Positions 26,786 to 31,440 of a stretch of 35,502 nt of DNA are shown piece after piece (the stretch's first letter is position 1; each line of letters begins with the position of its first letter). A program made the position numbers and the translations under genes. Below the pieces are notes generated by a model that was not told the DNA's origin, searched no databases, and saw nothing but the letters and a program-made list of their open reading frames with translations. The DNA is taken from the NCBI GenBank assembly GCA_017303655.1, contig JAFLCE010000041.1, positions 1 to 35,502 of the forward strand, written 5' to 3'. The DNA is from Anaerolineae bacterium. GTDB taxonomy: Bacteria > Chloroflexota > Anaerolineae > Anaerolineales > Villigracilaceae.

Positions 26786-27820
26786 TTATTTCACGATATT
26801 CACAAAATCCGCGAACAGACCATATGCGGTTTCGACAGGTCCGCCGGTCATGCCGGGTTTCTCGGATAAAACGATTGAGTAATCAATGATGACATCGGTG
26901 CGGAAGGTAATGCCCGTGCTGGAGTTCATCATGCCGTACAGCGACGAAGACGAATCCACCAATTGCGGGGCAACGCCAACTTTAATGTCTCCATTCACTT
27001 TTTCAGCAGAGCAAACCAATTTATAACGCTTGCCTTCTGCCTTCGCTTTGGCGATCATCTCAGAGGTGATGCCGCGAATGCCGGTGGGATTTACTTGCTG
27101 CGGCGTCATGGGCGTATCCCATAACACGGTTACCAACGCGGCAACTTTGATGGCGGCATCCCAACCGTCCACGTCGTTGGTGGGGTCGGTTTCAGCCAAA
27201 CCGATCTTCTGCGCGTACTTGAGCGCTTCGTCATAGGTCTCGCCACTTTCCATGCGAGATAAGATGACATTGGTCGTGGCGTTGAAGATACCCTTGAAGG
27301 ATTCCAACTCTGCCAGCGGGAACGCCTCACGCATGACCGAGAAAACGGGTGCACCTCCCAGAACCGCGGATTCATGCCGGAAGGTTCTTCCCTTCGATGC
27401 CGCTAACGCGGTCAATTCACGATAACCATGCACCACCGGACCTTTATTCGCAGTGCTGACGTGCATGCCCAAATTCAATGCGGTGCGGATGTGATCCAGC
27501 GCAGGTTGACCGGTCTCTGTATTGACGGGGGAGTTTTCGAACATGAAATTGGCTTGGGAATGATGAATCACTTCCATTGAATCTGCCAATGGCTTAACAG
27601 ATAATGCCGAAATATCCTTGCCACTCTCCACAAGTTCAAGCGCTTTCTGAATATCCAGCCCATTCGGGTTGACGGCGTGTCCGTGCCTGCCGGTGGAGAT
27701 GCCAGTGAACGAAAAGGTAACATCATGTTTGGATTTCAATATATCTTGTTTACGAACCAACAAGCGTGCCAATGCGCGGGCGACATTTCCAAAACCGATG
27801 AGGGCGAGGTTGTAGTGCAT
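26786..27820 (-). CDS. Homoserine dehydrogenase
   Basis: The enzyme reduces aspartate-4-semialdehyde to homoserine with NAD(P)H, the branch point to threonine and methionine. The 344-residue protein has an N-terminal Rossmann fold (LIGFGNVA, residues 7-14), a nucleotide/substrate lysine K126 in TANKGPVV, and the catalytic region DPTNDVDGWDAAIK (212-225), with D221 and K225 at the positions of the catalytic Asp-Lys pair of the family. There is no C-terminal ACT domain, so it is the short, allosterically simple type. AGGAG is 7 nt before the ATG. It follows the SCO1664-family gene on the same strand with a 52-bp gap that holds the second palindrome copy. No thrB, thrC or aspartate kinase is near. 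Confidence 0.95.
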   Translation of the reverse strand: MHYNLALIGFGNVARALARLLVRKQDILKSKHDVTFSFTGISTGRHGHAVNPNGLDIQKALELVESGKDISALSVKPLADSMEVIHHSQANFMFENSPVNTETGQPALDHIRTALNLGMHVSTANKGPVVHGYRELTALAASKGRTFRHESAVLGGAPVFSVMREAFPLAELESFKGIFNATTNVILSRMESGETYDEALKYAQKIGLAETDPTNDVDGWDAAIKVAALVTVLWDTPMTPQQVNPTGIRGITSEMIAKAKAEGKRYKLVCSAEKVNGDIKVGVAPQLVDSSSSLYGMMNSSTGITFRTDVIIDYSIVLSEKPGMTGGPVETAYGLFADFVNIVK

Positions 27821-27840: not shown

Positions 27841-27869
27841 GTAGGGGCGCAGCAATGCTGCGCCCCTAC
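27841..27869. repeat. 29-bp palindrome, copy 2 (upstream of homoserine dehydrogenase)
   Basis: Identical base for base with 26753-26781. It fills the gap between the SCO1664-family stop (27873) and the ribosome binding site of homoserine dehydrogenase, which are read in the same direction. Confidence 0.85.
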
Positions 27870-27872
27870 GGG

Positions 27873-28583
27873 TTATATAGGTGGATACGGATATGCTCTT
27901 CGTCCCTGCAATGGGCGCGGGAAGAGCTTTGATTCACATAACTCTTCTGCGCGGAAGAGCAGGGCTTCGATCTCGTTTGCGTTGAGATACGGCTCGAAGC
28001 GCTCCACCCAACTGGCGGCGGAGGAAAGAGGCGCGAGCAATTCATCCGCTATAGACTGACCGGCAAAGTCCCAGATCACGGTGCGGAGTTTATCTTCTTC
28101 GTGGAAGCAAATGCCGTGATCGATGGCGAAGAGGCGGTGGGTGTCGTCTTCAAAGAAAACGTGACTGCCTTTGCGGTCGGCGTTGTTGGCGAGGATGTCG
28201 AAGAGCACGACCGGGCGGAGCTTTTGTTTGTCTTCAACGCTGAAGTTGAAGTAATGATATTCAACATCATATTCGATGTATTGTTGCAGTGAACCGGGTC
28301 CATGTGGTCCATCGTCACGATAAACAGTGACGGGGACGAGGTTGAAGCCAAGCGCTTCACTCAGTTGATAGGCAGCGACTTCGCGCAACGCAAGTGTATT
28401 ATCTGGGAAGTCCCACAGAGGCTGTTCGCCTTTGCTGGGTTTGTACACGGCTTTTACAGTTTCACCTTCATGGTGAACATCGACAAGGAATGTGTAATTC
28501 GAACCCAGCATGAATTGACCACGAAGCTCGTAGTCGCCGTGAGTGAGGATGTTTTGGATTTCAGAGGGAGATTGAGTTACCAT
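27873..28583 (-). CDS. SCO1664-family protein (PI3/4-kinase-like fold)
   Basis: A 236-residue member of the SCO1664 family, first noted in Actinobacteria. It has the skeleton of the phosphatidylinositol-kinase-like fold: a strand ending in VYKP with K48, a helix Glu (E68 in LREVAAYQL), a catalytic-loop-like DILANNADRKGSH (129-141; D136, H141) and a metal-type Asp in FAIDHG (D155). These are the parts that bind ATP and Mg in HipA- and PI3K-like kinases, so phosphotransfer activity is plausible; substrate is unknown. Its ATG overlaps the stop of the TPR gene in ATGGTAA. With that gene and the DUF3090 gene 27 bp further upstream it forms a three-gene unit. In Actinobacteria SCO1664 and DUF3090 genes also occur together. 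Confidence 0.83.
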   Translation of the reverse strand: MVTQSPSEIQNILTHGDYELRGQFMLGSNYTFLVDVHHEGETVKAVYKPSKGEQPLWDFPDNTLALREVAAYQLSEALGFNLVPVTVYRDDGPHGPGSLQQYIEYDVEYHYFNFSVEDKQKLRPVVLFDILANNADRKGSHVFFEDDTHRLFAIDHGICFHEEDKLRTVIWDFAGQSIADELLAPLSSAASWVERFEPYLNANEIEALLFRAEELCESKLFPRPLQGRRAYPYPPI

Positions 28584-29068
28584 GTTTCGTCGAGTTTGTC
28601 TGCGTAGAATTGAATGGCATTCCGATACGCGATCACGCCTTCATCGTTCGATGTTTCGACCAGACTGTTCAGAAGTAGTTCCATTGCTTTCGCAGGCTGA
28701 CCAAGGTTGTACCAGGTTATGGCAAGAAAGACGCGGAATTCATGCCGTGCAGGGAAAAGGGCAATGGCTTGTTGAAACGTATCGTGGGCTTTTTGGTATT
28801 CCCCAATGCAACGATAGGTACTGCCCATGCCGAGCAGGGCACCTTGCAGGTCTTCACCGCTCAAACCGGTTTGAACAGCTTTCTCGTAAAAAGGGATGGC
28901 TTCGCGCTCCAGTCCGAGCAGGTCATGCACCCAGGCGCAATGATAGTTGACCTGCGCATTGCTGGGGTAGTCGGCATACAGGGCAAGCATTAGTTCACGT
29001 GCTTCTTCAACTTTTTTTTCTTTTCGCAGTTGAATGGCGCGAGATAATCGTTCTTCCATTGAGTTCAT
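28577..29068 (-). CDS. Tetratricopeptide-repeat protein between DUF3090 and SCO1664-family genes
   Basis: A 163-residue helical protein with three to four TPR-type helix pairs: SRAIQLRKEKKVEEARELMLALYADYP, VNYHCAWVHDLLGLEREAIPFYEKAVQ and GSTYRCIGEYQKAHDTFQQAIALFP can be read as consecutive repeats with the usual Gly/Ala/Tyr spacing (around residues 5-150). There is no signal peptide. TPR proteins bind peptides or other proteins. Its last codons overlap the start of the SCO1664-family gene by 7 nt, so translation is coupled, and it starts 27 nt behind the DUF3090 stop. The tight position between two conserved partners suggests it belongs to the same process. Confidence 0.85.
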   Translation of the reverse strand: MNSMEERLSRAIQLRKEKKVEEARELMLALYADYPSNAQVNYHCAWVHDLLGLEREAIPFYEKAVQTGLSGEDLQGALLGMGSTYRCIGEYQKAHDTFQQAIALFPARHEFRVFLAITWYNLGQPAKAMELLLNSLVETSNDEGVIAYRNAIQFYADKLDETW

Positions 29069-29095
29069 GCAGAGCTATTCATCTATAAAAGAAAT

Positions 29096-29623
29096 TTAAT
29101 GCAGATGTCCGTTTTTCTTTGGGCAGAAATGACCGCCCGGCTCCATGGGCTGACCGCACTGCGGGCACATGGGGCGACCACGCGAAGAGACTTCCTGTCC
29201 CCAGCGGGCGAGCTGACGCAGTTGTGTGCGCGTTGCCCAATAGCGAATTTGTGAACCTTCTTCGGGGTCTTGTTCTTCAGTGAGCAATTCTTTGGCGAAG
29301 ACGACGACGCGGTCGCGGTCTTTATCGTAGCCGAGACCGATCTCACCAGCGCGGAAGAGCGGGTCTACGGGCGGGTTGATGCGCATGACTTCTTCGACAT
29401 AATCGCCCGAGGCTTCTTCTAACTCGGGGTATTGCTGGCTAAGCTGCGCGAGAAATTGTTCCACACCAATGGCAAGCGAAATCAACTGCGCCTTTTCAAT
29501 GATGATGGTGATGGTGCGATGATCAGAATAGGCATGTAAATAAAACACACGCTGACCAGGTTTGCCAATGGCGTCAGCGGTGATGTGGTCACAGGGATCA
29601 ACGTCAATATCAATGCGGGACAT
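29096..29623 (-). CDS. DUF3090 family protein with C-terminal zinc knuckle
   Basis: A 175-residue cytosolic protein of the DUF3090 family (actinobacterial type, also in Chloroflexota). The N-terminal domain has repeated family phrases (RVFYLHAYSD, ITIIIEKAQLISLAIGVEQFL, FRAGEIGLGYD, VVVFAKEL). The C-terminus has a short zinc site C153-x2-C156 and C167 with His173 (RPMCPQCGQPMEPGGHFCPKKNGH), as in other members. Function is unknown. AAGG stands before the ATG. It opens the DUF3090-TPR-SCO1664 unit. In Actinobacteria the same pair sits close to a histidine-phosphatase-like gene and often to mycothiol genes, neither of which is seen here. Confidence 0.87.
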   Translation of the reverse strand: MSRIDIDVDPCDHITADAIGKPGQRVFYLHAYSDHRTITIIIEKAQLISLAIGVEQFLAQLSQQYPELEEASGDYVEEVMRINPPVDPLFRAGEIGLGYDKDRDRVVVFAKELLTEEQDPEEGSQIRYWATRTQLRQLARWGQEVSSRGRPMCPQCGQPMEPGGHFCPKKNGHLH

Positions 29624-29648: not shown

Positions 29649-29725
29649 GACCCCCTCCGCCCTGCGGGCACCTCCCCCAAATACAACGGACGAGCTCCCG
29701 TTGTATTTGGGGGAGGCTGGGGGTC
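29649..29725 (+). repeat. Cruciform-forming palindromic element upstream of the mutase gene
   Basis: Outer arms GACCCCC (29649-29655) and GGGGGTC (29719-29725) enclose a small hairpin (GCCC TGC GGGC at 29659-29669) and a 19-bp perfect hairpin (29671-29689 with 29698-29716; arm starts CCTCCCCCAAATAC). REP/MITE-like. It ends 3 bp before the TATAAT of the next gene, so it lies where that gene's -35 should be. Confidence 0.75.
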
Positions 29726-29760: not shown

Positions 29761-31440
29761 ATGTACGATAAAAAAATTCTCGATGAATTAAGTAAATCGC
29801 TTTCCAAGTGGGAAGAAACATCTCTCAAGAAAGCCTTGAGTCAATTACCCGAACGCGCCGACGAATTTATCACGACATCCTCCGACCCGATCAACCGACT
29901 TTATACGCCACTCGATATCGAGGATATGGACTACAACGCCTCACTCGGTCTTCCGGGTGAGTATCCCTACACAAGAGGAGTCCACCCGACTTTGCATCGC
30001 TCCAAGTTGTGGACGATGCGCATGTTCGCTGGCTTTGGCACCGCAGAAGAGACGAACCAGCGCTTCAAATACTTACTCGAGCAGGGTCAGACCGGTTTGA
30101 GCATTGCCTTCGACCTAGCCACTCTGATGGGCTACGACACCGACCAACCCGAAGCGCTGGGCGAATTCGGGAAATGCGGTGTGGCAGTCTCTTCGTTGAA
30201 AGATATGGAAATTTTGCTGGACGGTATTCCGCTCGATAAAGTTTCCTCCAGCATGACCATCAACTCGCCTGCTGCGATCATTTGGGCGATGTATCTCGTT
30301 GCTGCTGAAAAGCAAGGCGTACGACTCGATCAATTGCGAGGCACACTTCAGAACGACATTCTCAAAGAGTTCATCGCACAGAAGGAATTCATCTTCCCGC
30401 CGGAACCGTCCATGCGCCTCGTTGTGGATACGATGGAATACGGCTCGAAATACGTGCCGCAGTGGAATACCATTTCCATTTCGGGCTATCACATCCGTGA
30501 AGCTGGTTCGACCGCCGCACAGGAACTGGCATTCACGTTGGCAGACGGCATGGAATACGTCCGCTGGGGCATTGCGCGTGGCATGGACGTGGACGAGTTC
30601 GCACCGCGTTTATCTTTCTTCTTCAATGCACATAACGACTTCTTCGAAGAAATTGCAAAATATCGTGCTGCTCGCCGCATTTGGGCGCGTGAGATGCGTG
30701 AGACCTTCAAAGCGAAGAATCCGCGCTCGTGGCTAATGCGCTTCCACACGCAGACGGCGGGAGTCTCGCTCACAGCGCAGCAACCGGAGAACAATATTGT
30801 CCGTGTGGCGCTGCAAGCTCTCGCCGCTGTCCTCGGCGGAACGCAAAGTCTGCATACGAATTCAATGGATGAAGCCCTCGCGCTCCCCTCTGAACATGCG
30901 GTCAAAGTTGCTTTGCGGACTCAGCAAGTCATCGCCGAAGAATCTGGCGTGACGAATACGGTGGATCCGCTTGGGGGTAGTTTCTTCGTCGAAGCGCAAA
31001 CAGACCGAATGGAGAAAGAGGCGTACGCCTACTTCCGCCATATCGAAGATTTGGGCGGCGTCATCCCTGCGCTCGAAAAAGGCTTCATGCAAAGTGAAAT
31101 ATCCGACGCGGCGTATCGTTATCAACGCGAGATCGACAGTGGGCGCAGAAAAATTGTCGGTGTAAATGCTTATATGGAGGAGAAACCTGCTGTTATTCCC
31201 ATCCTGCGCATGGACCCGAATGGATACACCCGCCAGATGTCGCGCTTGAACGAAGTTAAGAAGACACGCGATAGCGGGCAAGTTGGGCAGACGCTTGATA
31301 AACTGCGCATCGCCTGCGAAGGCACAGAGAATACGATGCCTTATATCGTGGATTGTGTGCGCGCGTATTGCACGTTGGGGGAGATCATTGGTGTGATGAC
31401 GAAGGTCTTCGGGAAGTATGAAGAACCGACAATGATTTAG
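29761..31440 (+). CDS. Acyl-CoA mutase large subunit (methylmalonyl-CoA mutase family)
   Basis: The substrate-binding barrel of a B12-dependent acyl-CoA mutase, 559 aa, of the split type: no C-terminal cobalamin-binding domain is fused, so a separate small subunit must exist elsewhere. The family blocks are all there: [23 protein letters not shown] begins at 71, [12 protein letters not shown] at 117, TLQNDILKE at 195, PSMR with R219, SGYHIREAG with the cofactor-side His244, and [18 protein letters not shown] near 335. Methylmalonyl-CoA to succinyl-CoA is the default reaction, but isobutyryl-, 2-hydroxyisobutyryl- and ethylmalonyl-CoA mutases share this build. The segment [11 protein letters not shown] differs from the usual methylmalonyl wording RG(P/V/I)(Y/H)..MYRGR. 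AAAGGAG precedes the ATG. No meaB is near. Substrate therefore is open. Confidence 0.9.

Follow-up and report, generated by a model that had tools for sequence, protein, structure and literature searches.

The DUF3090–SCO1664 gene pair of an Anaerolineae genome as the probable half of a split kinase/phosphatase trio

The DUF3090 and SCO1664 genes in the window (the whole 35,502-nucleotide stretch of Anaerolineae DNA that was analysed) are probably one half of a known, uncharacterised kinase/phosphatase trio, which is split in this genome and carries a TPR gene as a passenger between the pair. The trio consists of an MSMEG_4193-type histidine phosphatase (TIGR03848, where MSMEG_4193 is named as a putative phosphomutase), DUF3090 (TIGR03847) and the putative kinase SCO1664 (TIGR03843), and the TIGRFAM notes are said to describe TIGR03848-TIGR03847-TIGR03843 as a system of three genes, one of them probably for a kinase. 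In the window's family, the phosphatase gene appears to lie downstream of rarA; in the window, the pair is flanked by genes for methylmalonyl-CoA mutase and homoserine dehydrogenase. The trio occurs commonly in Chloroflexota, is also found in Actinobacteria and presumably extends to mycobacteria. It has no known role, and that role is of real interest. As the initial annotation of this DNA had supposed, DUF3090 and SCO1664 are without proven function in the searched literature: the accessible parts of one open-access collection (including PMC13118837, PMC10127668 and PMC10433963) name none for either family.

The gene pair and its histidine phosphatase

The pair sits on contig C109 of the window genome (G000), between genes that Pfam assigns to Homoserine_dh (26786-27820) and MM_CoA_mutase (29761-31440). 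The coordinates, the shared minus strand, the 27-bp gap between the DUF3090 and TPR genes (29069-29095) and the 7-nt overlap of the TPR stop with the SCO1664 start (ATGGTAA, 28577-28583) were all confirmed, as was the presence of the VYKP, NNADRKGSH and IDHG motifs and of the DUF3090 zinc knuckle (Table 1). Two perfect inverted repeats flank the genes. One, with 19-nt arms and an 8-nt loop (29671-29716), separates the DUF3090 gene from the divergently oriented methylmalonyl-CoA mutase gene and has an arm pattern found at this single site in the whole genome. The other has 14-nt arms and a 1-nt loop (27841-27869) and lies between the SCO1664 and homoserine dehydrogenase genes.

Table 1. Features of the window locus and of related loci (positions are those of the window unless a contig or locus is named).
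Feature	Position	Strand	Evidence
DUF3090 / TIGR03847 protein, 175 aa	29096-29623	(-)	PF11290 147.7 bits (cut-off 27); TIGR03847 134.5 bits (cut-off 117.25); AlphaFold pLDDT 91.4
CxxC...HxC zinc-knuckle-like stretch, DUF3090 residues 153-167 (C153-x2-C156-x8-H165-x-C167)	29123-29167	(-)	Sequence; conservation in alignment
TPR-repeat protein, 163 aa, probable passenger in variable slot	28577-29068	(-)	TPR_2 47 bits (cut-off 27); genome comparison
SCO1664 family (TIGR03843), PI4K-II/HipA-like putative kinase, 236 aa	27873-28583	(-)	TIGR03843 252.6 bits (cut-off 172.4); model; conservation
VYKP, SCO1664 residues 46-49, putative ATP-binding lysine K48	28437-28448	(-)	K48 in 79/79 sequences
NNADRKGSH, SCO1664 residues 133-141, predicted catalytic-loop motif with D136 and H141	28161-28187	(-)	D136, R137, K138, H141 in 79/79
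IDHG, SCO1664 residues 154-157, putative metal-binding D155 (DFG-like)	28113-28124	(-)	D155 in 79/79
Histidine phosphatase candidate of the window genome	G000:C13:43131-43712		TIGR03848 175.5-176.1 bits (cut-off 203.85)
Phosphatase-DUF3090 fusion ORF, 405 aa	L115:8711-9928		His_Phos_1 166 bits; DUF3090 153.6 bits

Across 301 Chloroflexota genomes, SCO1664 was detected in 166 (one of them, G063, with a score of just 27.9 bits), DUF3090 in 197 and both in 157; DUF3090 occurred without SCO1664 in 40 genomes and SCO1664 without DUF3090 in nine. Since both families share 157 of the 301 genomes, mostly as adjoining genes, their pairing is far beyond chance, and the linkage claimed by the initial annotation is supported. 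Outside the window's family, DUF3090 lies upstream of SCO1664 on one strand and within 2.5 kb in 81 of the 98 genomes for which both gene positions are given; the other 17 have the two genes on separate contigs or farther apart, and they are not adjacent in G065, G145, G161 and G153. Within the family (100 genomes), each gene was found in 87 genomes and both credibly in 86, as the SCO1664 match in G359 (19.7 bits) is not credible. The pair is ordered on one contig and strand in 78 of these 86. Seven of the eight exceptions have the genes on different contigs, and in G332 they are 107 kb apart on opposite strands. Six of the eight belong to a single genus (g4: G096, G332, G339, G346, G358 and G363), so the pair is separable. 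Among 14 control genomes, DUF3090 was found in none and SCO1664 solely in Corynebacterium glutamicum.

A second sample came from a scan with the patterns FDx[LVI]xNNADR and [ED][PYD]KLRT[VI][LI]W, of which the best 80 of 582 loci were used. These named loci overlap with the surveyed genomes (L136/L050, L126/L052 and L026/L057 form identical pairs in the concatenated tree described below). Because our own ORF caller was imprecise and predicted ORFs on the antisense strand of GC-rich loci, gene counts are based on tblastn.

The usual third part of the system is a TIGR03848-like histidine phosphatase. Among the best 80 of 582 loci, 52 have an MSMEG_4193-type phosphatase gene upstream and in the same orientation, 78 have DUF3090, and 51 have the full trio; the 14 of these 80 that are actinobacterial by title have the phosphatase in 13 cases and DUF3090 in all 14. 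Three sampled clustered phosphatases scored 307.7 (L093), 220.4 (L074) and 200.4 bits (L096) against TIGR03848, so that the third narrowly misses the cut-off of 203.85. In one locus, L115, phosphatase and DUF3090 are fused in a single ORF.

In the window genome, the three genes do not form a single run. The phosphatase candidate lies on contig C13, where a single acyltransferase gene separates it from rarA upstream. Its score is under the TIGR03848 cut-off, which weighs against a trio in this genome, and weak matches to this model mean little, since they occur in 13 of 14 control genomes and in 187 of 201 surveyed genomes (29 of the 201 are above the cut-off). In a phosphatase tree listed without support values, however, the G000 gene falls among the clustered phosphatases with L072 as its neighbour, and the phosphatases of the window's family (L140-L144) nest there too, beside L072 and near L059, L060, L062 and L070. 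These five loci all have the order rarA, phosphatase, DUF3090, SCO1664 on one strand, the genes not being immediate neighbours in every case. A RarA gene and this phosphatase share a strand in 16 loci (RarA of L140 being assigned by Pfam). From the nested phosphatases and the gene order of the five nearest loci, the split of one ancestral cluster would be the simplest history of the trio in the window's family. Against the unity of the trio stand the split pairs in 8 of 86 family genomes, the 40 DUF3090-only and nine SCO1664-only genomes among 301, the C. glutamicum SCO1664 without DUF3090, and G055, which keeps rarA and the phosphatase and lacks both pair genes.

Neighbouring genes and the putative kinase

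The trio could instead be a metabolic route with no part in regulation, in which SCO1664 would be a small-molecule kinase (acting on a sugar, inositol or nucleotide), the phosphatase an enzyme of repair or of the following step, and DUF3090 a scaffold. This is a possible reading, and a doubtful one. Rv2135c is presumably the actinobacterial counterpart of the trio's histidine phosphatase. According to the accessible sections of PMC3866925, Rv2135c has acid phosphatase but no phosphoglycerate mutase activity, and small molecules are poor substrates for it; its weak hydrolysis of phosphoenolpyruvate and fructose-6-phosphate (Km 8-14 mM) would suit a metabolic role. SCO1664 is described in the accessible part of PMC4255298 as invariably and closely linked to mycothiol genes (mshC), and in L093 the trio is followed by an mshC gene (603 bits). 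Of the best 80 of 582 loci, 25 also have, after SCO1664 and within 3 kb on the same strand, a gene homologous to the homoserine dehydrogenase-type gene of the window (recurrent neighbour cluster c2). However, those 25 loci bear Chloroflexota-type titles, mostly of Anaerolineae, and the linkage may thus be lineage synteny. Neither mshC nor the homoserine dehydrogenase-type neighbour recurs across all lineages. Two other recurrent neighbour clusters (c3 and c4) were set aside as apparent antisense ORFs over the trio genes, judged by strand and position. The printed SCO1664-mshC link (accessible part of PMC4255298) and the NCBI models for all three trio families also mean that the description of the locus as a candidate undescribed system was not borne out.

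The predicted structure of SCO1664 (79 sequences, pLDDT 93.9, pTM 0.91) resembles that of kinases. In a Foldseek search, the top 11 PDB matches were to PI4K type II (best E 4.5e-7, TM 0.62/0.46), followed by Helicobacter pylori CtkA. A search with the family profile also found FAM20A (E 6.8e-5) and PI4K2B (5e-4) by sequence, while single-sequence searches for PDB relatives returned nothing useful. The SCO1664 alignment covers 78 of the best 80 of 582 loci (L104 and L109 were left out), and in all 79 sequences, of which those 78 are part, K48, E68, D136, R137, K138, H141, D155, R167 and W171 are invariant. Because the scan patterns favour their own residues, invariance at those positions is partly a result of selection; K48, E68, K138, H141 and D155 lie outside the patterns. 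In the model, E68 falls in the first long helix past the K48 strand, matching the position of the alpha-C glutamate. Taken alone, the window protein stays under the cut-offs of established kinase profiles: it scores 19.2 bits against PF00454 (cut-off 27.1; E 0.0012), which matches 75 of 79 family members at E <= 0.1, and 19.6 against PF20613 HipA_2 (cut-off 27). Model and conservation together support a PI4K-II/HipA-like kinase fold with an intact ATP site; catalysis is inferred. The kinase-like reading of SCO1664 in the initial annotation is supported, with the modelled fold nearest to PI4K type II and the lysine, glutamate and two aspartates invariant. The same annotation had suggested a phosphorylation system with a protein partner, of which the kinase-like part stands and the choice of the TPR protein as partner does not.

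Whether the fold transfers phosphate bears on a further alternative. H141 presumably occupies the position of the metal-binding asparagine in PI3/PI4 kinases, and such an Asn-to-His change could alter or abolish activity. On this basis SCO1664 might be no phosphotransferase at all, and instead a pseudokinase, a sensor that binds nucleotides or a kinase fold that transfers AMP. The histidine is found in all 79 sequences (78 from the best 80 of 582 loci), and the best PDB matches of the family profile are to the pseudokinase FAM20A. We regard this as unlikely, however, given the invariant ATP-site lysine, glutamate and both aspartates, and a phosphatase as the usual partner.

Genomes with SCO1664 and no DUF3090 were inspected at loci L188-L195 and L197. 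Those of family f16 (L188, L190, L192 and L193) have longer SCO1664 frames of 319-343 aa, with IDN[AG] in place of IDHG. In f16 loci L188-L192, a gene of about 170 aa was seen by eye near SCO1664 on the opposite strand; in L191 it is DUF7768-like by Pfam.

DUF3090 and its phosphatase partners

In its AlphaFold model (76 sequences; 75 come from the 78 loci with a match among the best 80 of 582, with L068, L119 and L122 left out), DUF3090 is predicted to open with four strands and one helix; three further strands and a second helix come next, ahead of the zinc stretch. The CxxC..HxC motif has already been noted (in the accessible part of PMC9425974). Its first cysteine is kept in 66 of the 76 aligned sequences (loci from the best 80 of 582), replaced in three and gapped in seven, of which five are, by eye, true absences and two are cut matches. 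L067, L071 and L092 have other residues in place of all knuckle cysteines, and L078, L090, L095, L098 and L116 lack the knuckle; consequently, zinc is not essential to the family. The top seven Foldseek matches of the model are all to PUR-alpha (best E 5.7e-3, none <= 0.001), and a profile search with DUF3090 gave no PUR match. The likeness is a hint, short of significance, of a nucleic-acid-binding fold.

Family f19 offers a natural variation on the trio. SCO1664 is absent from all 22 of its genomes and DUF3090 is present in 17, and in 14 of these 17 a phosphatase gene of the DSP/PTP superfamily directly follows DUF3090 on the same strand; the three exceptions are of one genus (G384-G386). 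The DUF3090-DSP loci are L158-L169, L173 and L175, and L146-L150 are partly of the same genomes. Two of these phosphatases scored 41.2 and 46.5 bits against PF22785 (cut-off 27), and a DSP-type phosphatase was found at none of the best 80 of 582 loci. In DUF3090-only genomes outside f19 (L151-L157), common neighbours were seen by eye just within families (L151/L152 and L154/L157). The DSP swap and the L115 fusion tie DUF3090 more closely to the phosphatase than to the kinase.

In the mechanism that we propose, SCO1664 would phosphorylate a substrate with ATP via K48, E68, D136 and D155, and the histidine phosphatase would take the phosphate off again, by analogy with the measured acid phosphatase activity of Rv2135c, its presumed orthologue. 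DUF3090 would have no catalytic role of its own and would bind the substrate or present it, with its closest tie to the phosphatase. The split locus, the fusion and the phosphatase swap together suggest that DUF3090 is the partner of the phosphatase, and that kinase and phosphatase act on a single shared target. A bolder and rather improbable extension is that DUF3090 is a general, substrate-binding and perhaps PUR-like phosphatase partner, serving phosphatases of two unrelated folds: a histidine phosphatase opposed by SCO1664 in many lineages, and a DSP-type phosphatase without the kinase in another; the trio would then be a reversible phosphorylation cycle with one conserved target in Chloroflexota and Actinobacteria. 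Rv2134c is presumably the mycobacterial DUF3090 gene. In the accessible part of PMC11329110, it appears among tabulated mutants whose sensitivity to rifampicin is altered.

The slot between the pair and comparison with known systems

In 66 of the 78 family genomes with an ordered pair, at most 217 bp separate the profile matches of DUF3090 and SCO1664, which leaves no room for a TPR-type gene. The other 12 slots hold genes of at least six kinds: a TPR gene in two (G000 and G377), a GNAT acetyltransferase in four (G343, G350, G328 and G314), a PIN-domain protein in two (G374 and G355), a HIT protein (G324), a PD-(D/E)XK protein with a 66-aa ORF (G361), aldehyde dehydrogenase and transporter-like genes including an ABC ATPase (G353), and one short ORF without assigned identity (G312). 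TPR matches occur in six of the 100 family genomes. G377 has the same arrangement as the window, with TPR proteins 68% identical; in G375, G365 and G318 homologues (41-45% identity) lie elsewhere in the genome, and G352 has a weak one. In both G375 and G365, a MOSC gene comes after the homologue, while the genome's DUF3090 and SCO1664 genes are immediate neighbours (114 and 70 bp between them), and in G318 it is present where the pair was not detected. A TPR match was found at none of the best 80 of 582 loci.

A tree of concatenated SCO1664 and DUF3090 sequences places the window with L087 and L046, and G377 with L051 and L135, all four of which have no TPR gene; TPR presence is not monophyletic. 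The gene was gained twice, moved sideways or lost many times, and given the tree and its scattered occurrence, none of these histories fits an obligate third part. The initial annotation had named a TPR gene lying elsewhere in related genomes as evidence against its module, and the neighbourhood survey that it proposed found relatives without the gene, with it elsewhere or with an unrelated gene at the slot. That the TPR protein is the functional third part of an undescribed kinase system is therefore largely refuted and highly improbable, despite the close packing of the window's three genes, with their start/stop overlap, and the matching arrangement in G377: slot counts (two of 78 family genomes, none of the best 80 of 582 loci), slot contents (unrelated genes in ten family slots), homologues beside a MOSC gene or in a pairless genome, and close relatives without it (L046 and L087) all speak against it. 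Most likely, the TPR gene is a passenger in a variable slot, and it is dispensable for further work on the trio. The window locus is an ordinary, well conserved member of the trio, in split form and with a passenger.

Comparison with known systems places the locus accordingly. The window shares with the TIGR03848-TIGR03847-TIGR03843 trio a DUF3090 and an SCO1664 protein above the curated cut-offs, in the same order and on the same strand, but differs in having its phosphatase elsewhere and under the cut-off, and a TPR gene inside the pair. Rv2135c and the phosphatase candidate of the window genome are both histidine phosphatases and may be orthologous. With PI4K type II, CtkA, HipA and FAM20 kinases, SCO1664 shares a modelled kinase fold and the ATP-site lysine, glutamate and two aspartates; it differs from them in its length of 236 aa, its conserved KLRTxxW stretch and the histidine that presumably takes the place of asparagine in its putative catalytic loop.
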